A stretch of 64,000 nucleotides of DNA from positions 1,679,501 to 1,743,500 of the forward strand of contig NC_003063.2 in the NCBI RefSeq assembly GCF_000092025.1, in the 5' to 3' direction. The DNA is from Agrobacterium fabrum str. C58. Its GTDB lineage: Bacteria; Pseudomonadota; Alphaproteobacteria; Rhizobiales; Rhizobiaceae. Position 1 is the first letter of the stretch. Each line of letters opens with the position of its first letter. A program made the translations under genes and the position numbers. The notes beneath the pieces were generated by a model. The model was given only the letters and a program-made list of their open reading frames with translations. It did no database searches and was not told where the DNA came from. Positions 1 to 9,959 of the stretch are shown here, piece by piece.

Positions 1-75
1 GTAGCCGTAAATCTCCGGCTGGCGCTGGCCGAGCAAATTGAGGTTCGGACCATTGAGGATTGTGAAAAGGCTCAT
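1..75 (-). CDS. aroQ: 3-dehydroquinate dehydratase type II (5' end only)
   Basis: Only the first 25 codons are inside the window; the gene continues past the left edge. The visible N-terminus contains NGPNLNLLG followed by QRQPEIYG, the hallmark start of type II dehydroquinases, which dehydrate 3-dehydroquinate to 3-dehydroshikimate in the cytoplasm. Its ATG overlaps the TGA of the upstream dehydrogenase gene in an ATGA arrangement, so the two are translationally coupled. Placement after an importer and a quinate/shikimate dehydrogenase, beside the pca genes, suggests a catabolic role (quinate to dehydroshikimate to protocatechuate) rather than aromatic amino-acid biosynthesis. The family call is firm; the catabolic role is inference. 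Confidence 0.85.
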   Translation of the reverse strand, partial: MSLFTILNGPNLNLLGQRQPEIYGY

Positions 76-941
76 GCCACGCCCTCCGCCATGCAAAGTT
101 CTGTGAAATGCGCCGTCATGCGTTTCGCATCCGGCTCGCGGCCGCAAAAGAGGCGAAATGCGCCGACGGCCTGGAACACGGTCATGCCGCCGCCGGGCAG
201 GGTTCGGCATCCCTTGCTGGCCGCAGTCGCCAGAAGCTCGGTCACCAGCGGCATATAGACGATATCGGCGACCCAGTGCTTTTGTTCGATCAGCTCGGCC
301 GCAACCGGCATGCCGGGATGCGCGGGCATGCCCATCGGCGTGGCATGGATCAGGCCATCGGCAAAGGGCAGCGAGTCGGCCGGGTCCTTCACCGCGAAGG
401 CGCGGCCTTCACCAAAACGGGCATTGAGCTCGTCGGCGAGACGTTCGGCTCTTGGAAAATCCCGGTCGAAGATATCCAGCCTGATAATATCGAGCTTCAA
501 CGCGGCATGGGCCACCGCAACGCCGGCGCCACCTGCGCCGACCAGAAGTGCCCGGTCGCGTTTTGCATCCGGCAGGCCGCGCACGAAGCTTTCGTAAAAA
601 CCGTACCAGTCGGTATTGTGGCCGATGCGGCGTCCATCCCGGAAGACAACGGTGTTGACCGCGCCCAACATGCGGGCGTCGTCGGAGAGTTCGTGCAGAT
701 GCGGAATAACGGCCTGCTTGAAAGGATGGGTGATGTTCGTCCCGGCAAAACCGCGCGCCTCCAGCTCGTCGAGAAGAGCGGGAAGGCTACTCTGCGGCAG
801 TTTGCGGGCGGTGACATCCACAAGCTCGTAGGAATAGTCGAGGCCATGGGCCGCACCCTCACGCATATGCAGCGCGGGCGATTTGGAAAGCTGGATGTCG
901 GCGCCTATCAGGCCGACCTTGTAGGCGGTTTTTTCTGTCAT
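72..941 (-). CDS. aroE: Quinate/shikimate dehydrogenase, NAD-type (AroE family)
   Basis: A 289-residue AroE-family dehydrogenase interconverting quinate or shikimate with the 3-dehydro compounds. Visible: the substrate-binding SKS at 19-21, NITHPFK with catalytic Lys75, NTD with Asp111, the Rossmann loop GAGGAG at 135-140, ATPMGMPAHPG at 200-210 and GGGMTVFQAV at 250-259. After the second Rossmann strand there is FDRD with Asp159 where biosynthetic NADP-dependent AroE enzymes carry an NRT-type Arg/Thr pair. An acidic residue here is typical of NAD-dependent catabolic quinate/shikimate dehydrogenases such as corynebacterial QsuD, which also shares the ATPMGMPAHPG stretch as I remember it. It is the penultimate gene of an ABC importer operon and is coupled to aroQ. 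The catabolic role is inferred. Confidence 0.85.
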   Translation of the reverse strand: MTEKTAYKVGLIGADIQLSKSPALHMREGAAHGLDYSYELVDVTARKLPQSSLPALLDELEARGFAGTNITHPFKQAVIPHLHELSDDARMLGAVNTVVFRDGRRIGHNTDWYGFYESFVRGLPDAKRDRALLVGAGGAGVAVAHAALKLDIIRLDIFDRDFPRAERLADELNARFGEGRAFAVKDPADSLPFADGLIHATPMGMPAHPGMPVAAELIEQKHWVADIVYMPLVTELLATAASKGCRTLPGGGMTVFQAVGAFRLFCGREPDAKRMTAHFTELCMAEGVA

Positions 942-1012
942 GATCAGGTGTCGCTCATCGGACGGTGTGGGAGAGGCGGGACGATCCCGCCCGCCTTAAG
1001 AGCGCGCGAACC

Positions 1013-1774
1013 TCAGTGGTGGGCGAGAATTTCGCCGAGGAACGTGCGCGTGCGCTGGTGCTTGGGATCGCGGAAGAATTCTTCCGGCGGGCCTTCCTCG
1101 ATGATCTCGCCTTCCGACATGAAGACCACGCGGTCGGCCACCTGGCGGGCGAAACCCATTTCATGGGTCACGCAGATCATCGTCATGCCGTCGCGGGCAA
1201 GGCCGATCATGGTGTCGAGCACTTCCTTCACCATTTCCGGGTCGAGTGCCGAAGTCGGCTCGTCGAACAGCATGGCTTTCGGTTCCATGCATAGCGCCCG
1301 GGCGATGGCCGCACGCTGCTGCTGGCCGCCGGAAAGCTGTGCCGGGTATTTGTCGGCCTGGTTGAGGATGCGTACGCGGTCCAGATATTTGCGCGCCGTC
1401 GCCTCCGCATCGGCCTTGGAGAGACCCTTCACCCGCATCGGGGCAAGGGTACAGTTTTCCATGATGGTCTTGTGCGGGAAGAGATTGAAGCTCTGGAACA
1501 CCATGCCCACTTCGCGGCGAACCGCATCGATGGCGCGGCTGGAATCCGACAGCGTGGTGCCCTCGACGGTGATCTTGCCCTCCTGGATTTCCTCCAGATG
1601 GTTGATGCAGCGGATGAGGGTGGATTTGCCCGAACCGGACGGGCCGCAAAGAACGATCTTTTCGCCTTTGCGAACCGTCATGTTGACGCCTTTAAGCGCA
1701 TGGAAGGCTCCATACCACTTTCCAACCCCTTCAAGGGCGATCAGCGGAGCCTGTGCGGCGGAGGATTGCGACAT
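1013..1774 (-). CDS. Polar amino-acid type ABC transporter ATPase
   Basis: A 253-residue GlnQ/HisP-like ATPase that would energise the two permeases at 3561-4890. Walker A GPSGSGKS lies at 44-51, the ABC signature LSGGQQQR at 147-154, and the Walker B segment AMLFDEPT with its catalytic Glu just after. There is no C-terminal regulatory domain, as usual for this subfamily. The start at 1774 is chosen because AAGGA sits about 8 bases upstream; an ATG at 1789 would add five residues but has no clear ribosome-binding site. The substrate cannot be read from an ATPase; the operon context (dehydrogenase and dehydroquinase downstream) suggests a cyclic hydroxy acid such as quinate or shikimate instead of an amino acid. 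Confidence 0.92.
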
Positions 1775-1804
1775 GGAACTTTCCTTCATGCTTTGCAGCG
1801 GCGT

Positions 1805-2641
1805 TTAGTTGATGGTGTAGGGAATGTCGGGAAGCGAGGCCGGGAAGTCCGGAACCGGGCGCTTCATCCATTTGGCATAGACTTTTGCGAGGTCGCCATT
1901 GGCCTTGGCCTTGTCGAGCCAGGCGTTGAGCGCTTCGTTCCAGTCCTTTTCACCCGGGCGCGTGGCGGCGCTGTTGTAGAGGGTCACGAGGTCGAACTTC
2001 ACCTCGTAATCCTTGCCGCCGGCTGCCGCGAGGCGGTCACCATAAAACTGGTTGCCGCCGATCGCCTCGATCTGGCCCGACAGGATCGCCTGAATGGTGG
2101 CGGCGTCGTCATCGAAACGAAGGATATTCGCTTTCGTACCCGCGCCGGCGGTCAAGGCTGTGTCCATCGGGCTGGATTTCGGTGCGCCGACGGTCATTCC
2201 GGTCAGATCGTCGAAATTGGCGATCTTCTTGTCCTTGGTGGCGTAAACCGACATGACGTTATGCGCGTAAGGCTGTGCATATTGCACGTTCTTGGCACGT
2301 TCCGGTGTCATCCCCATCGACGCGAACAGGGCGTCGACCTTGCCGGTGCGCAGCGACGGAATGCGGTTGGCGACGGCAAGCGGCACGAACTCCACTTTCA
2401 GTCCAAGATAGTCCGCAAACCCCCTGGCCAGGTCGGCATCGTAGCCTTCCTGCACACCGGATGAATTGATGAAGCCCCAGGGCGCGTTGTCGCCTTGGAT
2501 GCCGATCACGATCTTGCCGCTGGATTTTGCCTCTTCCAGCGTCCGGGCGTCTGCCCCTGCGGGTGTCAGGATCGGCAGCAGCGCTGCCAATCCGACTGCG
2601 AGGGCCGTCCGCCAACGTGTCTTTGTCTCAAAGATTGCCAT
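1805..2641 (-). CDS. Periplasmic substrate-binding protein, amino-acid ABC type (paralog 2)
   Basis: A 278-residue type II periplasmic binding protein (SBP_bac_3 family) with a Sec signal peptide of about 32 residues ending near AGADA. The mature part shows GIQGDNAPWGF, a Tyr/Asp dipeptide region at the first domain, and ANRIPSLRTGKVDALF followed by MTPERA, the usual ligand-binding strand and Arg. It is a close paralog of the product of the next gene upstream (2678-3517), with long identical runs throughout, so the pair arose by tandem duplication. Sited between that paralog and the ATPase gene, it probably delivers a related ligand to the same permease. The ligand is unknown. Confidence 0.9.
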   Translation of the reverse strand: MAIFETKTRWRTALAVGLAALLPILTPAGADARTLEEAKSSGKIVIGIQGDNAPWGFINSSGVQEGYDADLARGFADYLGLKVEFVPLAVANRIPSLRTGKVDALFASMGMTPERAKNVQYAQPYAHNVMSVYATKDKKIANFDDLTGMTVGAPKSSPMDTALTAGAGTKANILRFDDDAATIQAILSGQIEAIGGNQFYGDRLAAAGGKDYEVKFDLVTLYNSAATRPGEKDWNEALNAWLDKAKANGDLAKVYAKWMKRPVPDFPASLPDIPYTIN

Positions 2642-2677
2642 TGGTTACTCCTCCCAATCTCAGCCTCGTCCAATCCT

Positions 2678-3517
2678 TCACTTCACGGTGAAAGGAATGT
2701 CCGGCAGGCTTTCCGGGAAGGCCGGAATATCTCGCTTCATCCACTTGTCGTAGATCTTTGCGAGCTGGCCATCCGACTTGATCTTGTCGAGGAAGGCGTT
2801 GATGGTCTCGTTCCAGTCCTTTTCGCCAGGACGTGTGCCGGCGCCGTTATACATCGTCGTCAGATCGAACTTCGACTCGTATTTACCTTCGGCCGCCTTG
2901 TTTAGCCGGTCGCCATAAAACATGTTGCCGCCAACCGCTTCGACCTGGCCGGAAATCAGCGCCTGAATATTGGCGGCGTCATCGTCGAAGCGCAGAATAT
3001 TGGCCTTGGAACCCGCGCCGGCGGTGATGGCCGTATCCATGGCGCTCGATTTCGGCACGCCGACGTTGAGGCTGGTCAGATCGTCAAAACCGGCGATCTT
3101 CTTGTCTTTCGGACCGTAGACGGAAAACACGTTGCCGACGTAGGGCTTGGAGTATTGGATGCTCTTGGCGCGTTCTGCGGTCATGGCCATGGTGGCGAAA
3201 AGCACGTCGACCTTGCCGGTCAAAAGTGCCGGGATGCGGTTGGCCACGGCGAGCGGCACGAATTCCACCTTCACGCCGAGATAGTCGGCAAAGGCCTTGC
3301 CGATATCGGCATCCAGACCATCCTGCACGCCGCTGGAATTGACGAAGCCCCATGGCGAATTATCGCCCTGAATGCCGATGACGACCTTGCCCTTGGCCTT
3401 GGCTTCTTCCACCGTGGCGGCGGAAGCATCGACCGGCGCGACAAAGGGCAGGGCGACGGTTGCTGCGGCGAGCGCGAGCAGGGCGCGGCGTGAGAATTTC
3501 ATGTTGGTAGTTTTCAT
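2678..3517 (-). CDS. Periplasmic substrate-binding protein, amino-acid ABC type (paralog 1)
   Basis: A 279-residue SBP_bac_3 family periplasmic binding protein. The start at 3517 (MKTTNMKFSRR) is preceded by a strong GGAGGAG; a longer reading from 3592 would run into the permease gene and is rejected. The N-terminus has SRRALLALAAA, a twin Arg that could permit Tat export, though a normal Sec signal is equally possible. The mature protein parallels its tandem paralog (1805-2641): GIQGDNSPWGF, ANRIPALLTGKVDVLF, MTAERA, PKSSAMDTA and RFDDDAA. It lies directly after the permease genes, the usual place for the major binding protein. Two binding proteins on one importer suggests a widened ligand range, for example quinate and shikimate. 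Confidence 0.9.
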   Translation of the reverse strand: MKTTNMKFSRRALLALAAATVALPFVAPVDASAATVEEAKAKGKVVIGIQGDNSPWGFVNSSGVQDGLDADIGKAFADYLGVKVEFVPLAVANRIPALLTGKVDVLFATMAMTAERAKSIQYSKPYVGNVFSVYGPKDKKIAGFDDLTSLNVGVPKSSAMDTAITAGAGSKANILRFDDDAANIQALISGQVEAVGGNMFYGDRLNKAAEGKYESKFDLTTMYNGAGTRPGEKDWNETINAFLDKIKSDGQLAKIYDKWMKRDIPAFPESLPDIPFTVK

Positions 3518-3560
3518 CTTTTGCTCCTCCTTACAAAGCTGATGAGATGATTTTTGACGA

Positions 3561-4211
3561 TTAGCGGGATGCGGCCTGCAGCCGCTTTTCAACGCCGGCG
3601 CCCCACAGGGAAAGCGGCCAGCAGATCAGGAAATAAATGATGCCGACGATGGCGAAGACGGTGAGCGGACGGAACGTCTGGTTGGAGACGATCTGGCCGG
3701 CGCGCGACAGCTCGACGAAGCCGACGATTGCCGCAAGCGAGGTGCCCTTGATGAGCTGCACGAGGAAACCGATGGTGGCCGGCAGCGAAATCTTGAAGGC
3801 CTGCGGCAGAACCACGTCCTTCATGCGTGACACGTAATGCAGGCCGAGCGCATTGGCAGCCTCGGTCTGGCCCTTCGGCACTGCCTGGATGCCGCCGCGC
3901 CAGATTTCGCCGAGGAAGGCGCTGGCATGCAGGGTAAAGGCAATGGCGACCGCGATCCAGGCATCGACGTTGAGGCCCGCAAGCGCCACGCCGTAATAAA
4001 CCACGAAAAGCTGCATCAGGAGCGGCGTGCCCTGGAAAACGGCGATGAAAGCCATGCTCGCACGCTGGATTGCCGGGCTGTCCGCGACGCGGGCCAGCGC
4101 CACGCAAAGGCCGAAGACACCGCCGCCTATGAAGCCGATCAAGGTCAGCGCAAGGGTCCATTTCAGGCCTTGCATCAGGAAGAAGAGTTCGTTGGGACCG
4201 ATTGATGCCAT
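3561..4211 (-). CDS. Polar amino-acid type ABC transporter permease (HisM/GlnP-like)
   Basis: A 216-residue inner-membrane permease. Hydrophobic segments at about 15-40, 55-80, 88-105, 145-165 and 185-208 match the five-helix plan of His/Gln-type permeases. The cytoplasmic EAA loop reads EAANALGLHY followed by VVLPQAFKI, where the ATPase docks. Ten bases separate it from the preceding permease gene, so the two are co-transcribed and probably form a heterodimeric channel. Length is normal for the family. The substrate is inferred only from the operon (quinate or shikimate). Confidence 0.92.
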   Translation of the reverse strand: MASIGPNELFFLMQGLKWTLALTLIGFIGGGVFGLCVALARVADSPAIQRASMAFIAVFQGTPLLMQLFVVYYGVALAGLNVDAWIAVAIAFTLHASAFLGEIWRGGIQAVPKGQTEAANALGLHYVSRMKDVVLPQAFKISLPATIGFLVQLIKGTSLAAIVGFVELSRAGQIVSNQTFRPLTVFAIVGIIYFLICWPLSLWGAGVEKRLQAASR

Positions 4212-4221
4212 TGTCTTTTCC

Positions 4222-4890
4222 TCACTTGACCGGATAGCTGAAGGATGCGCGCGAGATGAGCGCGAAAATGCCCATCATCAGCGAGGAAATGACCAGATAA
4301 AGCAGCGTGATCGAGAAATAGACCTCGAAGGAACGGAACGTATCCGCCTCGATCTTCTGCGCCACCGATGTCAGTTCGTAAGCCGCGATCGAGGTGCAGA
4401 CCGAGGTGGTCAGCGTCAGCATGATGAACTGGCTGGTGAGCGAGGGATAAACCGCCCGCAGCGCCGGCTTCAGGATAATATGGCGGAAAATCTGCGCGCG
4501 GTGCAGGCCGAGCGCCAGTCCCGCCTCCACCTGGCCCTTGGGAATGGAATCGACGCCGCCGCGAATGATTTCAATCGCATAGGCGCCGCCGTTGAGAGCA
4601 AGCGCGATGATGGCGGTCACGGTTGGGTTGAGCTTGATGCCGATCTGCGGCAGGGCGAAGAAGATGAAGAATATCTGCACCAGAAACGGCGTGTTGCGGA
4701 TGGCTTCCACAAAACCGATGACGAGGCCGCGCAGCAGCTTGAAGCGTGAACGGCGGGCAACGACGCCCAGAACGCCGAGGACTGTGGCGAGCGACATGCC
4801 GGCAATCGCCAGGCCGATTGTCGCAAGACAGGCCAAAAGCAGCTCGGGCAGGCGCTCTATGACCGCCGAAAAATCGAGACTGTAAGACAT
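4222..4890 (-). CDS. Polar amino-acid type ABC transporter permease, first gene of operon
   Basis: A 222-residue inner-membrane permease beginning MSYSLDFSAVIERLPELL. The start at 4890 is set by GGGAGGAAG immediately upstream; the open frame continues 48 codons further but that part is not protein-like. Its EAA loop reads EAGLALGLHRAQIFRHIILKP. It is the first gene of the minus-strand operon permease, permease, binding protein, binding protein, ATPase, dehydrogenase, dehydroquinase. A good sigma-70-like promoter lies about 150 bases upstream (5039-5068). It pairs with the 3561-4211 product as a heterodimer. Confidence 0.92.
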   Translation of the reverse strand: MSYSLDFSAVIERLPELLLACLATIGLAIAGMSLATVLGVLGVVARRSRFKLLRGLVIGFVEAIRNTPFLVQIFFIFFALPQIGIKLNPTVTAIIALALNGGAYAIEIIRGGVDSIPKGQVEAGLALGLHRAQIFRHIILKPALRAVYPSLTSQFIMLTLTTSVCTSIAAYELTSVAQKIEADTFRSFEVYFSITLLYLVISSLMMGIFALISRASFSYPVK

Positions 4891-5038
4891 TCTTCCTCCC
4901 AACCCGTTCGGGTCCGGACAGGCTTTTTGCCTTGTCCGCATTGCTCTGGAACCTTGCGGCGCCAAAGCCCTCCATTTTATGTGCTCCTGCCGCCGCAGGC
5001 ATTGAGCCTTCCTCGCCGGTATGGTGTTAATCATAATG

Positions 5039-5068
5039 TTTGTACCAGTTAGTTCATTTTTGTGTCAA
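5039..5068 (-). promoter_or_regulatory. Putative sigma-70 promoter of the ABC/quinate operon
   Basis: On the minus strand a perfect -35 hexamer TTGACA (5068-5063) is followed, after 18 bases, by TACAAA (5044-5039). The spacing and the position upstream of the first permease gene fit a vegetative promoter. The sequence AACTGGTACAAAC overlapping the -10 region could bind a repressor, but none is encoded beside it. Confidence 0.5.
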
Positions 5069-5195
5069 GCATTATGTCCGGTTAAAAAACAGCTTTCGCG
5101 TTGTTTTTTCGTTTCTTGAATTTTAGAATAAAGTGTTTTTTATCAATGGCTAAGGTGTGAAACCGCAAGCGCTTTCCACGCGCGGTCAACCCGCC

Positions 5196-5222
5196 TCCGG
5201 CACGCCGTCTGGCAGTGCCGGA
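5196..5222 (-). terminator. Hairpin downstream of pcaB
   Basis: TCCGGCAC and GTGCCGGA form an 8 bp stem extended by an inner GCC/GGC pair with one bulged base and a 4-base loop. It begins about 37 bases after the pcaB stop codon in the direction of transcription. No T-run follows, so it may be a factor-dependent or processing hairpin and not a classical intrinsic terminator. Confidence 0.45.
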
Positions 5223-5258
5223 AACCCCTTCATGCGATCAAAACGAACCCGCCTGCGG

Positions 5259-6320
5259 CTAGTTGCCGTTCGTACCGAGCCTGTCTATCTGCGCTGCCAG
5301 CCGTTCGGCGATCAGCAGCGAGGCACCCGTTGCCGTCACCATTTGCGGAAGCGACAGCCATTCCAGCATCCAGCCCGCGCCGGACCGTTCCTGTTCATGC
5401 ACGAGCGACTGGTGCAGCGCGGAGATCTGCACGGCATTAAAGCGGGCAAGCGCTGCCAGCGTTTCGGCATTGACCGGATTCTGCTTGTGCGGCATGGCGG
5501 AAGAACCGCCGCCGCCGGATAGACGGATTTCCGTACCGATCTCGGCCATCAGCGCGATATCCTGCCCGAACTTGCCCAGCGTCCCTGTCACGAGCGAGAG
5601 AATATTGCCGAATTCGGCGATGCCGTCGCGCTGGCTTTGCCATTGCTGTTTGTCGGCAAGGCCGAGCCGCATGGCGAGATCGGCCCGCACGGCTCCGGCA
5701 TTGTCGCCGAGCTTTTCCAACGTTCCGGCGGCACCGCCGAATTGCAGGGCAAAACCGCTCTGCGCGAAGGTTTCGAGCCTGAGCAGGTGGCGCTCAAGCG
5801 GCGCGATCCAGCTCGCCGCGCGATCGGCCACCGTGATACCGATGGCGGCCTGCATGCGGGTATAACCGGTGAGCGCGTTATGGCCATCGCGGGCGGCGAT
5901 GTCTCCGAGCGCATCGATGAGCCGGCCGAGCCGGGCGGCGATGATTTCCGTCGCCATTTTCAGCCGCAGCATCAGGCTGGTATCGATGACATCCTGGCTG
6001 GTTGCGCCGAAATGCACCTTTTCCGCCGCCTTGCCGGCGACGGCTGCCCGCATCTGCCGCACGAGTTCAGGCACCACCACGCCGTCTTTGGCGACGCCAT
6101 GGCGAAGGGCGGTCATATCGGCGGCAAACTCCGAAAGCCCCGAGACGATTGCCTTCGCGACGTCCTCGGAGATGATGCCTGTTCCCACCTGCGCCTGCGC
6201 CAGCGCCGTTTCGAAACGGATCATGGCGTCGATATCCGCCCTTGCCGAAAACAGCTCGACAATTTCGCTATCGCCGAAAAGGCCTGACAGGAACGGGTGC
6301 TCGAAGGGGGAAAGGCTCAT
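5259..6320 (-). CDS. pcaB: 3-carboxy-cis,cis-muconate cycloisomerase
   Basis: This 353-residue enzyme of the fumarase/aspartase superfamily converts 3-carboxy-cis,cis-muconate to 4-carboxymuconolactone. The superfamily signature GGSSAMPHKQNPV lies at about 271-283, and HFGATSQDVIDT at 103-114 carries the second active-site region. It is shorter than the pseudomonad enzymes, lacking their C-terminal helical extension; I believe this short form is usual in rhizobia. It is the last gene of pcaDCHGB, 12 bases after pcaG, with GGAAG directly before the ATG. The identification rests on both sequence and operon position. Confidence 0.95.
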   Translation of the reverse strand: MSLSPFEHPFLSGLFGDSEIVELFSARADIDAMIRFETALAQAQVGTGIISEDVAKAIVSGLSEFAADMTALRHGVAKDGVVVPELVRQMRAAVAGKAAEKVHFGATSQDVIDTSLMLRLKMATEIIAARLGRLIDALGDIAARDGHNALTGYTRMQAAIGITVADRAASWIAPLERHLLRLETFAQSGFALQFGGAAGTLEKLGDNAGAVRADLAMRLGLADKQQWQSQRDGIAEFGNILSLVTGTLGKFGQDIALMAEIGTEIRLSGGGGSSAMPHKQNPVNAETLAALARFNAVQISALHQSLVHEQERSGAGWMLEWLSLPQMVTATGASLLIAERLAAQIDRLGTNGN

Positions 6321-6332
6321 CTTCCGTCTCGC

Positions 6333-6953
6333 TCAGATATCGAAAAACACGGTTTCGCCTTCGCCCTGAAGGCGGATATCGAAACGATAGACGTTGCCTT
6401 CCTCCTTTTGGGCGACAAGCGTGGCGATGCGGCTTTTCTGCTCGACACGGGCAAGAACCGGGTCGGCCGCATTGGCTTCCTGTTCTTCCGGGAAATACAT
6501 GCGGGTCTGTAGGCCGATATTGATGCCGCGGGCAACAATCCAGAAGGTGATGTGCGGCGCCATCGGGCGGCCATCGCGGAATGGCACGGTACCCGGCTTG
6601 ATCGTCTCGAAAATGAATTCGCCCGTATCCATGTCGCCCGGCGAGCGGCCCCAGCCGATGAAGTTCGGATCGGCCTTGCCGCGGGTTTCGCTGGGGCTGT
6701 TGTAATAGCCGTCGGTATCGGCCTGCCAGATCTCGATCAGCGCGTCCTTCAGCGCCATGCCCGCACCGTCATAGACCGTGCCGCGCACGCTGATGCGTTC
6801 GCCACGGGCCTTGTCGTTATAAAGCGGACCGGAGCCGAGATCCTTTTCGAACACGCCTTCGATGCCGACGAAATTCGGTGTGCAGCCGATATGCACATAG
6901 GGGCCTGCCGTCTGCGAGGCGGTCTCTTTGAAATAGTTGAGCGGCTGAACCAT
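6333..6953 (-). CDS. pcaG: Protocatechuate 3,4-dioxygenase alpha subunit
   Basis: This 206-residue alpha subunit of the intradiol ring-cleavage dioxygenase opens protocatechuate to 3-carboxy-cis,cis-muconate together with PcaH. It has the intradiol core (GTVYDGAGMALKDALIEIWQ, then PHITFWIVARGINIGL, whose Arg is expected to contact substrate carboxylate) but lacks the two-Tyr two-His iron site, as expected for the non-catalytic alpha chain. It starts two bases after the pcaH stop codon, consistent with coupled 1:1 synthesis. Confidence 0.97.
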   Translation of the reverse strand: MVQPLNYFKETASQTAGPYVHIGCTPNFVGIEGVFEKDLGSGPLYNDKARGERISVRGTVYDGAGMALKDALIEIWQADTDGYYNSPSETRGKADPNFIGWGRSPGDMDTGEFIFETIKPGTVPFRDGRPMAPHITFWIVARGINIGLQTRMYFPEEQEANAADPVLARVEQKSRIATLVAQKEEGNVYRFDIRLQGEGETVFFDI

Positions 6954-6955
6954 GG

Positions 6956-7696
6956 TCAGTTGCCCTCCATGCGGTTTTCGAAAAGGGTCGAGCGGCGGCC
7001 GCGCAGAACGATATCGAACTTATAGGCCAGCATATCCATCGGCAGCGCCGCATTCATGTCCAGCGGCGCTATCAGTCTTTTGATCGCATCCTCGTCTGGA
7101 ATGGTCTTGACGATCGGACATTTCCAGATCAGCGGATCGCCTTCGAAATACATCTGGGTGATCAGCCGCTGGGCAAAGCCATGGCCGAAGACCGAGAAAT
7201 GGATATGGGCCGGGCGCCAGTCATTGACGCCGTTTGGCCAGGGGTAAGCGCCCGGCTGGATGGTCTTGAACCAGTAGTAGCCGTTCTCATCCGTAATCGT
7301 GCGGCCGACGCCGCCGAAATTCGGATCGATGGCGGCGAGATAACTTTCCTTCTTGTGACGATAACGGCCGCCGGCATTGGCCTGCCAGAACTCCACCAAT
7401 GCGCCATCCACGCCGCGGCCACGCTCGTCCAGCACCCGGCCATGGACCAGAATACGCGGGCCGACGGGCATTTCGCCGGGGCGGGCATAGTTGAGGATGA
7501 GGTCGTTATCCAGCGGGTTGAGCACGCCATGGCCGAAAACGGGGCCGGTAATCTCGCTCTTGGTGCCCTCAAGCGAAATCAGCGCGCGCTGCGGTGAGCG
7601 AAGGATCGACGTCTTGTAGCCGGGCGCATAGGCCAGCGGGTGAATATCGCGGTTGCGCGCGAAGAACGGCCCGGTTTCAGGCGGTTGGTTGCTCAT
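6956..7696 (-). CDS. pcaH: Protocatechuate 3,4-dioxygenase beta subunit
   Basis: This 246-residue catalytic beta subunit of protocatechuate 3,4-dioxygenase binds the non-haem Fe(III). All four expected ligands are visible: Tyr112 (GGRYRH), Tyr151 (PGAYPW), His164 and His166 (RPAHIHF). The N-terminal arm and GPVFGHG region are typical of beta chains. Its start overlaps the pcaC stop by four bases (ATGA), and pcaG follows after two bases. The position within pcaDCHGB confirms the assignment. Confidence 0.97.
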
Positions 7697-8127
7697 TTCG
7701 TCTCCTCCCCATTGCCAGAATTATCAGTGGAACTATCGGTCTTCATGCTGACCAGGGCAAGCTTGGCGATCTTGAAAGCGTGGTTGGCGGCGGGCACGCC
7801 GGCATAGATCGCCACATGCAGCAGCGCCTCGCGAATATCCGCTTCCGTGGCGCCGGTATTGACGGTGGCGCGCACATGCATGGCCAGTTCCTCATCCTGC
7901 CCCAGCGCCGCCAGCAGGGCGATGGTGACGATCGAGCGTTCGCGCTTCGTGAAGTGGTTGCCGGACCAGACCGTGCCCCATGCACCTTCGGTGATGAGCT
8001 GCTGGAAAGGCTGGTCGAAGTCGGACGTCATGGTCTGCGCGCGGTTGACATGGGCGTCGCCCAGCACCGCGCGGCGGGTTTTCATGCCCTGTTCGAAACG
8101 TTCGTTCTTGTCGATATGGTCCGCCAT
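7693..8127 (-). CDS. pcaC: 4-carboxymuconolactone decarboxylase
   Basis: This 144-residue single-domain enzyme decarboxylates 4-carboxymuconolactone to 3-oxoadipate enol-lactone. It has the CMD fold sequence [20 protein letters not shown], a His-containing [10 protein letters not shown] segment and the family motif GVPAANHAF near residues 114-122. The length is usual for stand-alone PcaC (in some bacteria it is fused to PcaD as PcaL; here the two are separate but adjacent, three bases apart). It overlaps pcaH by four bases. Confidence 0.96.
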
Positions 8128-8130
8128 CGG

Positions 8131-8928
8131 TCAATGCTCCGGCAAGGTCTTCAGAAAAATGGAGGCCGCCTGTGCATAGACCAGCGGCTGTTCAAGGCAG
8201 GGAATGTGGCCACAGCCGGCGATGGTGACGAAACGGCTCTTGGGGATGAGACCCGCCAGCGATTGCACCAGTTCCGGTGGTGTGGAACCGTCCTGATCAC
8301 CCGCAATACAGAGCGCCGGCACGGCGATACGCCCGGCCTGTTCGGTAAAATCCGCATCACGGATGGCGGCGCAGGTGCCGCTATAACCCGCTTCAGGCTG
8401 TTGCGAGAGCATGTTGCGCGCGCCGGCATAGGCGGCATTCTCACGCTGGCGGAAGGCGGGCGTGAACCAGCGCTCCATGACGGGATCGACTAGCGAGGCG
8501 AGGCCATCGGCGGCGATCTTGTCGATCCGGGCATTCCACATCTCAGTCGTGCCGATCCTGTGAGCGGTATTGCTGAGCAGCAAAGCGCGGACGAGATCGG
8601 GCCGTCGCGCATAAAGTCCCTGCGCAATGAGACCACCGACCGAGAGGCCCCAGATGACGGCGCTTTTGATCTCGAGATGATCGAGAAGCGCAATCAGATC
8701 ACCGGCGTGATCGTCAATCGAATAGGGAGCACGCCCGACATCGGAAAGGCCGTGGCCGCGCTTGTCGTGCAGGACATAGGCATAGTCATCGCCGAGCGCC
8801 TCGATAACCGCATCCCAGATGCGGAAATCGGTGCCGAGCGAATTGATGAAGGCAATCACAGGCTTGCCGCTGTCCAATCCCTTGGCGCGATAATGGATCA
8901 CAGTCTCGCCGCAGCGCAGAAAATGCAT
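8131..8928 (-). CDS. pcaD: 3-oxoadipate enol-lactonase
   Basis: This 265-residue alpha/beta-hydrolase hydrolyses 3-oxoadipate enol-lactone to 3-oxoadipate. The nucleophile elbow is WGLSVGG with Ser96, and the catalytic His lies in AGCGHIPCLEQP near residue 245. It is the first gene of pcaDCHGB. GAGGAG stands about 8 bases before the ATG. The promoter must lie in the 95 bases shared with divergent pcaQ, where a PcaQ-type binding site is visible (9001-9016). Confidence 0.96.
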   Translation of the reverse strand: MHFLRCGETVIHYRAKGLDSGKPVIAFINSLGTDFRIWDAVIEALGDDYAYVLHDKRGHGLSDVGRAPYSIDDHAGDLIALLDHLEIKSAVIWGLSVGGLIAQGLYARRPDLVRALLLSNTAHRIGTTEMWNARIDKIAADGLASLVDPVMERWFTPAFRQRENAAYAGARNMLSQQPEAGYSGTCAAIRDADFTEQAGRIAVPALCIAGDQDGSTPPELVQSLAGLIPKSRFVTIAGCGHIPCLEQPLVYAQAASIFLKTLPEH

Positions 8929-9023: not shown

Positions 9024-9959
9024 ATGGTCGATCAGCGTATCAAGTTCCGGCATCTGCAGACCTTTGTGGAAGTGGCGCGACAGAAAAGCGTCATCCGCGC
9101 TGCGGAAATCCTGCATGTCAGCCAGCCGGCGGTGACGAAGACCATTCGCGAGCTGGAAGACGTCCTCGGCGTGTCGCTGCTGGAGCGGGAGGGGCGCGGC
9201 ATTCGCATCAGCCGCTACGGCGAGGTCTTCCTGCGCCATGCCGGCGCGACGATGACGGCGCTGCGCCAGGCGGTCGATTCGGTATCGCAGGAAGCGGCGC
9301 GCGCCGGCCCACCGGTGCGGGTTGGGGCTCTGCCCACGGTTTCCGTCCGCATCATGCCGAAGGCGATGTCCGGATTTCTGGCGGAGAAGACCGGCAGCCC
9401 GGTGAAGATCGTGACAGGCGAAAACGCCGTGCTTCTGGAGCAGCTGCGTGTCGGTGATCTCGATCTCGTCGTCGGGCGTCTCGCCGCGCCACAGAAAATG
9501 GCGGGTTTTTCCTTCGAGCACCTCTATTCGGAAAAGGTGCGCTTCGTGGTGCGCGCCGGCCATCCGCTTTTATCGCCCGGCCTTTCAGTGTTCGACCACC
9601 TGCATGAATATCCGGTGCTGATGCCGACGCGGCAATCCGTCATTGGCCCTGTCGTTGAGCAGTTTTTGATCGCCAACGGCGTTCCGGCTCTGCCGATCCG
9701 CATCGAAACCGTCTCGGATGCCTTCGGCCGCGCCTTCCTGCGCACCAGCGATGCAATCTGGATCATCTCGGAGGGCGTGGTGGCAGCGGATGTGGCGGAT
9801 GGCATTCTGGCGATCCTGCCGGTCGAGACCGGCGATACCAGCGGCCCGGTGGGGCTGACGGTCAGGGCCGATACGCAGCCCTCGCTGCCGCTGTCGCTTT
9901 TGATGCAGGCTATTCGCGAGGCAGCCGGTGAGCTGTTTGATGGGAGGACTGAAGGGTGA
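9024..9959 (+). CDS. pcaQ: LysR-type activator of the pca operon
   Basis: A 311-residue LysR-type regulator divergent from pcaD. The winged-helix domain occupies about residues 6-65 (FRHLQTFVEVARQKSVIRAA with SQPAVTKTIRELEDVLG), followed by a periplasmic-binding-protein-like effector domain from about 95 onward. In Agrobacterium and Sinorhizobium, PcaQ activates pcaDCHGB in response to the intermediate beta-carboxy-cis,cis-muconate; the same is inferred here from position. The gene converges on pobA with a hairpin between them. The start codon has only a weak ribosome-binding site, as is common for regulators. Confidence 0.93.
   Translation: MVDQRIKFRHLQTFVEVARQKSVIRAAEILHVSQPAVTKTIRELEDVLGVSLLEREGRGIRISRYGEVFLRHAGATMTALRQAVDSVSQEAARAGPPVRVGALPTVSVRIMPKAMSGFLAEKTGSPVKIVTGENAVLLEQLRVGDLDLVVGRLAAPQKMAGFSFEHLYSEKVRFVVRAGHPLLSPGLSVFDHLHEYPVLMPTRQSVIGPVVEQFLIANGVPALPIRIETVSDAFGRAFLRTSDAIWIISEGVVAADVADGILAILPVETGDTSGPVGLTVRADTQPSLPLSLLMQAIREAAGELFDGRTEG

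Follow-up and report, generated by a model that had tools for sequence, protein, structure and literature searches.

What does an ATP-binding cassette (ABC) importer of the polar amino acid transport (PAAT) type carry when its genes share an operon with enzymes of quinate and shikimate breakdown? The question is raised by the left end of the stretch of Agrobacterium fabrum C58 DNA analysed here (the window: 64,000 nucleotides of contig NC_003063.2), since members of this transporter family are as a rule labelled amino-acid importers. We conclude that this is very probably a quinate/shikimate uptake-and-catabolism locus whose importer would take up quinate and/or shikimate, as a preliminary description of the DNA had proposed. 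Import of these acids is supported by the linkage of the genes, by a shared operator, by the replacement of the importer by tripartite ATP-independent periplasmic (TRAP) transporters in related loci and by a changed binding pocket. Coordinates are those of the window unless prefixed with C2: (contig) or with an L-number (fetched locus), and those of the features are collected in Table 1.

Leftward from position 4890, the minus strand carries two permeases, two solute-binding proteins (SBP1 and SBP2), an ATPase, an AroE-like dehydrogenase with Asp at residue 159 and the start of aroQ, all present and in the order that the preliminary description had given. The close spacing that it mentioned was seen as well: the gaps from permease A to the AroE-like gene are 10, 43, 36, 30 and 71 bases, and aroE and aroQ overlap by 4 bases. 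Both binding proteins belong to family 3 (SBP_bac_3, 117 bits each, cut-off 26.4), the permeases are of the His/Glu/Gln/Arg/opine type (TIGR01726, 97.7 and 99.5 bits, cut-off 42.2) and the ATPase passes ABC_tran (133 bits, cut-off 25); judged by the families of these components, the importer is a PAAT-type ABC importer.

Linkage and shared operator sites

Genome contigs were scanned with SBP1 and the best 80 of 100 loci were compared, 35 of them close (80-97% identity) and 45 distant (53-61%). At least one of aroE, aroQ and quiC lay within 10 kb of the SBP1 relative in 79 of the 80 loci, the lone exception being a contig of 5.8 kb that breaks off right after the binding-protein gene. aroQ was found in 24 of the 35 close and 44 of the 45 distant loci, and pcaH was nearby in 22 and 15, respectively. 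The distant group has a changed gene order and a TetR match in 7 of 45 loci; its constant partners are quiC (37/45) and aroQ. Most distant ABC loci have AroE matches of no more than 25-33% identity; the count of 79 is independent of these weak matches because aroQ is there in 44 of the 45. As a background, the A. fabrum genome holds 22 other family-3 binders. None of them has an aroQ within 10 kb, and a single one has an AroE-family gene within that distance (a third AroE, 9.8 kb away). In a second sample, a profile of 14 binding proteins run over 151 genomes of the family gave 25 matches in 21 genomes. All 19 with the pocket QNWVNRNY were linked to aroE/aroQ/quiC genes, an intermediate (L168, pocket MQWVARNY) stood beside aroQ, and the five weakest matches (pocket LFFGNRSV) were unlinked to such genes in the fetched stretches.

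Gene content varies around this core. Nine close loci (L005, L006, L016, L018, L019, L021, L023, L024 and L036) carry importer, AroE, TetR and QuiC with no aroQ or pca match nearby. In two distant ABC clusters, a gene start near the importer reads like an NAD-binding oxidoreductase (L059:14500-15585 and L167:13973-15028), and genes near the importer at L059:6290-6982 and L064:8341-9009 and 9055-9729 read like GntR regulators, not TetR.

A putative operator ties the importer to the dehydratase gene. Comparison of the region before permease A with the gap between tetR and quiC gave the near-palindromic pattern AACYAAYTRGTACA; it was written from these two sites of the A. fabrum genome, so that their match holds by construction. 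The site before the importer reads AACTAACTGGTACA. The 5.67-Mb genome has no other exact match to the pattern and one further site within one mismatch (C3:22837-22850), and the reversed pattern has 6 sites at one mismatch or fewer. Scoring against 20 shuffles covered L002-L065. Before the importer, 13 or 14 of the 14 positions agree in all 35 close loci, and before quiC at least 12 of 14 agree in all 33 close loci that have quiC, where the best of 20 shuffles reached 10-12 and 10-13, respectively. In distant ABC loci whose TetR is 51-56% identical, the operator scored at least 12 of 14 in six of seven, a score that no more than 1 shuffle in 200 equalled; the remaining locus, L067, scored 11 of 14, equalled by 11 of 200. 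We take the TetR-family protein to be a repressor acting at these sites.

In the gap upstream of the importer, where mean column agreement is 54%, the operator is the sole long conserved block and stands directly behind TTGAC. The region before quiC is better conserved throughout (71%) and has other conserved blocks besides the operator. The hexamer TTGACA, which the preliminary description had read as the promoter, is real; across 36 upstream regions its first five letters hold in 90% or more and its final A in fewer than 70%. A promoter scan of positions 4800-5300 found no full sigma-70 site, and a full promoter was rejected on this ground; by eye, the best readable -10 is TACAAA at 18 bases from TTGACA.

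Exchange of importer classes and the binding pocket

With the AroE-like protein as query, the 151 genomes yielded 51 matches at E-values of 2.2e-66 or better, the one in the window among them, and the flanks of 40 were fetched. This ABC importer accompanies AroE in 11 of the 40 loci, a TRAP binding protein in 27, neither in two and both in none; one of the two without either lies on a short contig (L141), and the other (L152) has a different PAAT-type importer about 5 kb off (ATPase 47%, no SBP1 match). The TRAP proteins, separated by match coverage, fall into two groups, TRAP_A (8 loci) and TRAP_B (19 loci). All but one of the 27 TRAP loci have a TetR match; among these 26, the operator reaches 11 of 14 positions or better in 24, and in 22 the score was equalled by at most 3 of 100 shuffles. 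aroQ is absent from 7 of the 8 TRAP_A loci. On the AroE tree (42 rows, two without importer label left uncounted, L140 on a long branch) the importer label changes at least four times, and the ABC importer appears in two places: in the window's clade (support 100/99) and in L155, whose sister L151 has TRAP_B (100/99).

For one TRAP transporter a ligand has been measured. The part of PMC3454389 available to us reports, for the Sinorhizobium meliloti TRAP binding protein SMb20036, a Kd of 5.9 nM for D-quinate against about 1e-4 M for shikimate, a preference of more than 15,000-fold for quinate, together with an 8.7-fold induction of its gene by quinate and the annotation of SMb20037 as AroE. On pSymB of S. 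meliloti 1021 we found, in order, a TetR gene (49% identical to that of A. fabrum), an operator matching at 13 of 14 positions, a TRAP binding protein 85-89% identical to the TRAP_A members L131 and L135, and AroE (58%); an annotated sister record lists TetR, TRAP small and large permeases, a TRAP binding protein and shikimate dehydrogenase. By replicon, order and gene types this locus fits SMb20034-37. TetR, operator and AroE being of one kind there and in A. fabrum, the ABC importer of the window appears to stand where S. meliloti has a transporter whose affinity for quinate has been measured. No DctP/TRAP binding protein lies at the window locus, the 9 DctP matches of the genome being elsewhere and the nearest more than 300 kb off, and the genome has no close relative of the TRAP binding proteins of the AroE loci (best 45%, none above 46% identity). 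The importer of the window would work like the SMb20036-type quinate transporter without being a member of that class. TRAP_B, found in the same AroE slot in L132, L139, L142-L151, L153, L154 and L156-L160, is 25-31% identical to the S. meliloti quinate-binding protein; that its ligand is shikimate is a guess.

The binding pocket points away from amino acids. In family-3 amino-acid binders, aromatic residues and an Asp surround the amino acid and an Arg holds its carboxylate; in LAO, where R77, S69 and F52 are named in the titles of solved-structure entries, D161 holds the amino group of the ligand. SBP1 departs from this pattern: relative to AncQR and AncCDT-1, aromatic residues are replaced by N53 and V91 and the Asp by N198, and the carboxylate Arg, R116, is kept. 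All 88 related proteins from the 80 loci share Q50, N53, W56, V91, N93, R116 and N198, and SBP2 has these residues too. In the 22 other family-3 binders of the genome, as far as a distant alignment places these columns, 7 have Asp and 2 have Asn in the Asp column, and the residues in the aromatic columns vary. Such a pocket would suit a ligand with a carboxylate and no amine. An AlphaFold2 model of SBP1 (mean pLDDT 86.2) has the expected fold and indicates no ligand; no solved structure was found close enough to infer one, although absence from a fold list proves nothing.

SBP2 is 67% identical to SBP1 and probably shares its ligand class, because the pocket letters of the two are the same. 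The second tandem copy occurs in only 6 of the 35 close loci (L002, L007, L010, L014, L015 and L020), so two binding proteins are unnecessary for the system; the tandem would reflect either an ancient duplication that was lost many times or an exchange among strains. We think it probable that some PAAT ABC importers form a subfamily that gave up amino acids in favour of a cyclic polyhydroxy acid (quinate/shikimate). Within a single TetR-controlled quinate regulon of the Rhizobiales, this subfamily would have replaced, or been replaced by, two kinds of TRAP transporter on two or more occasions, and it would be recognisable by the operator and by the pocket Q50-N53-W56-V91-N93-R116-N198-Y201.

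Enzymes, proposed mechanism and rival explanations

Only the first 75 bases of aroQ lie in the window, and the gene ends at C2:1679132. To its left we read tetR, convergent with aroQ, and quiC, divergent from tetR. The preliminary description had missed a dehydroshikimate dehydratase and suggested that it might lie there; because this QuiC-type gene was found, the route from quinate or shikimate to protocatechuate appears complete at one locus. The QuiC-type protein joins a TIM barrel to a domain like that of 4-hydroxyphenylpyruvate dioxygenase and aligns with structure 5hmq over residues 2-622 of 632; its start was set by reading the sequence and lies 13 codons upstream of the one on which the family searches were run. 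AroQ exceeds the cut-offs of both DHquinase_II (199.1 bits) and TIGR01088 (191.3 bits). The best solved relative of the AroE-like protein is the Corynebacterium glutamicum quinate/shikimate dehydrogenase 3jyo (242.8 bits over 273 residues), and Asp159, counted along the alignment, pairs with Asp158 of 3jyo, which we take to be the NAD determinant. Asp stands at this position in 42 of 42 aligned AroE sequences (the window's own, 40 family loci and S. meliloti), where the biosynthetic AroE of the genome has the NADP-type motif NRT. Further aroE and aroQ copies, presumably biosynthetic, lie on contig 1, which makes those of the locus extra copies; no type I dehydroquinase was matched in the genome, and a PHROGs search with the AroE-like protein gave no match. 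The pca genes that the preliminary description had placed next to the operon form a separate block, pcaB-G-H-C-D, at 5259-8928, upstream of it on the same strand.

Two candidates from the AroE comparison were rejected. Ser or Thr at AroE position 21 does not correlate with importer type. The third AroE-like gene (C2:1418714) is not taken as part of the system: it does not lie beside the importer, has Gly and Asn at two Ser positions and reads NRN in place of the Asp. Its region (L111:13147-15568, C2:1418147-1420568) adjoins a frame that reads like a GMC oxidoreductase.

In the mechanism that we infer from gene content, order and linkage, from the operator sites and their conservation, from the importer exchange and from the pocket residues, either binding protein would capture quinate and/or shikimate in the periplasm and deliver it to the permeases and ATPase of the importer. 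The AroE-type enzyme, predicted to use NAD, would convert quinate to 3-dehydroquinate or shikimate to 3-dehydroshikimate, in the catabolic direction; AroQ would dehydrate 3-dehydroquinate to 3-dehydroshikimate, QuiC would turn the latter into protocatechuate, and the neighbouring pca operon would open the ring. The TetR-family protein would sit as a repressor on the two operators, before the importer operon and between tetR and quiC, and would probably be released by quinate, shikimate or a dehydro intermediate.

Several results weigh against this proposal or narrow it. The AroE-like protein scores 256.4 bits where the NAD-dependent quinate/shikimate dehydrogenase equivalog, NF010631, has a cut-off of 515, and the QuiC-type protein scores 642.6 bits where the equivalog NF042435 has 1200. 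We do not file the former under its equivalog, although it likely works like that enzyme, and we name the latter QuiC-type rather than a QuiC equivalog; NAD use is put as a prediction because AroE passes PRK12549 but misses the cut-off of the NAD enzyme. Distant ABC loci without a TetR match (within L037-L065) lack the operator before permease A or quiC (scores of 11 or lower, shuffles 10-12), which restricts the regulon argument to a part of the group, and these loci must presumably be controlled otherwise. Five distant loci (L058, L061, L063, L064 and L077, four of them named Brucella or Ochrobactrum) have permeases, aroQ and pca genes with no AroE or QuiC match in the fetched stretch; there, another enzyme may oxidise quinate. 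Among the close loci, 11 of 35 show no aroQ (one of them the truncated L029). In genome G071, about 30 kb separate an AroE cluster with the ABC importer (L130) from one with TRAP_A (L135). This pairing hints that the two divide the work, and the ABC importer may not do exactly what the quinate TRAP transporter does.

The last two results bear on a narrower version of the proposal, whose odds overlap with its own and which we rate as unlikely, though not negligible: that the ABC importer takes up mainly shikimate, with quinate entering elsewhere or poorly. Given the more than 15,000-fold quinate preference of the S. meliloti TRAP binding protein (PMC3454389, available part), a division of labour would explain why G071 carries that TRAP type as well as the ABC importer, and the close loci that show no aroQ would not need one for shikimate. 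Yet aroQ, needed only from dehydroquinate, is kept in 24 of the 35, overlaps aroE in the window and is the most constant partner in distant ABC loci (44/45); its absence elsewhere proves little, since 7 of 8 TRAP_A loci also lack it, and A. fabrum itself is without a close relative of the TRAP binding proteins of these loci (best 45%). It is improbable that the importer carries instead a hydroxycinnamoyl quinate (for example chlorogenate), 3-dehydroshikimate, 3-dehydroquinate or protocatechuate. All of these would feed the same enzymes, and the pca genes are adjacent in A. fabrum, but no esterase family occurs among the genes from permease A to quiC. For a protocatechuate importer, moreover, aroE, aroQ and quiC would be unneeded, and we rejected it because pca genes are less constant neighbours than these (pcaH near in 22 of 35 and 15 of 45 loci, against 79 of 80).

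Hardest to sustain, and very improbable in our judgement, is an ordinary amino-acid importer that merely stands beside catabolic genes. Its family and fold are indeed those of amino-acid binders, and the nearest solved structures, which count against uptake of quinate and/or shikimate, are mostly amino-acid or opine binders, with a few for ectoine, sulfobetaine and cyclohexadienyl dehydratase. Against this, the linkage outlasts changes of gene order and the presence or absence of TetR, the operator is common to importer and quiC, the two aromatic positions have become N and V and the Asp position N in all 88 relatives, and the nearest unlinked relatives carry different pocket letters; we rejected placement by chance because of the linkage and the pocket. 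Uptake of quinate and/or shikimate is the reading that we prefer.

Two further observations concern the surroundings. Left of quiC, L001:3980-10985 holds a Gsi/Dpp-type peptide ABC importer (ATPase and binding protein) and a 577-aa protein. A 566-aa open frame on the plus strand (window 108-1808), antisense to aroE and the ATPase gene, was taken as a by-product of high GC content.

Table 1. Features of the importer operon, its control sites and the neighbouring catabolic genes
Feature	Coordinates	Strand	Evidence
Permease A, PAAT type	4222..4890	-	BPD_transp_1, HEQRo_perm_3TM; start 4890 preceded by conserved GGAGGA
Permease B, PAAT type	3561..4211	-	BPD_transp_1, HEQRo_perm_3TM
SBP1, solute-binding protein family 3, predicted quinate/shikimate binder	2678..3517	-	SBP_bac_3, 117 bits
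SBP2, diverged tandem copy of SBP1	1805..2641	-	SBP_bac_3, 117.2 bits
ABC ATPase	1013..1774	-	ABC_tran, 133 bits
AroE-type quinate/shikimate dehydrogenase, NAD-type pocket (Asp159)	72..941	-	PRK12549, 439.6 bits (cut-off 235); Shikimate_dh_N
aroQ 5' end, type II dehydroquinase	1..75; remainder C2:1679132-1679500	-	DHquinase_II, 199.1 bits; whole gene L001:14632-15075
TTGACA, likely -35 of importer operon	5063..5068	-	sequence; conservation in 36 upstream regions
Putative TetR operator, behind -35	5041..5054	-	exact match to AACYAAYTRGTACA
Second operator copy, between tetR and quiC	C2:1678402-1678415	-	exact match to AACYAAYTRGTACA
tetR (outside window)	C2:1678453-1679157	+	TetR_C_29 C-domain
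quiC, QuiC-type 3-dehydroshikimate dehydratase (outside window, left)	C2:1676442-1678379	-	PF01261 and PF14696
pcaB	5259..6320	-	TIGR02426 and PRK05975 above cut-off
pcaG, protocatechuate 3,4-dioxygenase alpha	6333..6953	-	TIGR02423, 243.6 bits
pcaH, protocatechuate 3,4-dioxygenase beta	6956..7696	-	TIGR02422, 355.1 bits
pcaC	7693..8127	-	CMD domain; named by pca operon position (PMC12285266, available part)
pcaD (PcaD-like hydrolase)	8131..8928	-	Abhydrolase_1; named by pca operon position (PMC12285266, available part)

Comparison with known systems

As a catabolic system the locus is of a known kind; what is unusual is its importer. Its closest counterpart with a measured ligand, SMb20034-37 of S. 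meliloti, is like it in TetR type (49%), operator (13 of 14) and an AroE of the same type (58%) beside the importer; it differs in that its importer is of the TRAP class, unrelated to ABC importers, and in that no quiC or aroQ match lies within the 40 kb fetched. RutR-like TetR repressors are the nearest named NCBIfam model for the regulator, which scores far below their cut-off (50.3 against 368 bits) and has a different neighbourhood; the operator resembles the palindrome of RutR. Among the enzymes, AroE, set against C. glutamicum 3jyo, keeps the Asp for NAD, Ser19, Lys75 and Asp111, but has Ser21 for Thr19 and lies below the equivalog cut-off (256 against 515 bits). The QuiC-type protein has the same two-part architecture as 5hmq, an entry named 4-hydroxyphenylpyruvate dioxygenase that we take to be the Pseudomonas putida QuiC.

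With regard to the importer, the positions that face the amino acid in the pockets of PAAT importers (the LAO, GlnH, opine and ectoine systems) are replaced in the binding proteins of the window. The best solved-chain match to SBP1 is AncCDT-1, a reconstructed ancestor of cyclohexadienyl dehydratases (103.6 bits). That line is a precedent for a change of ligand, because there a family-3 binder turned into an enzyme acting on cyclic carboxylates; the likeness may mean only closeness to the centre of the family, and the window protein, in contrast, sits with importer genes. Among the open-licence papers listed, judged by titles and abstract openings, none was seen to describe quinate or shikimate import by an ABC transporter encoded at a locus of this type; most subscription journals lie outside that literature. 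The available part of a paper on the pca operon mentions neither quinate, shikimate nor an ABC transporter (PMC12285266), and a ligand library used on binding proteins of R. palustris included quinic and shikimic acid, with no binding of them told in the available part of that paper (PMC3223731).

Quinate and shikimate are common plant acids, and the uptake step therefore bears on life in the rhizosphere. The regulon would be an example of an importer class being swapped while regulator, operator and dehydrogenase stay in place. Since the pocket signature tracks the catabolic genes, it could lead to the re-annotation of a whole transporter group in plant-associated bacteria. Set beside the systems already known, what the analysis offers is a solid and testable new annotation for a group of transporters that occurs widely, and not a system of a new kind.

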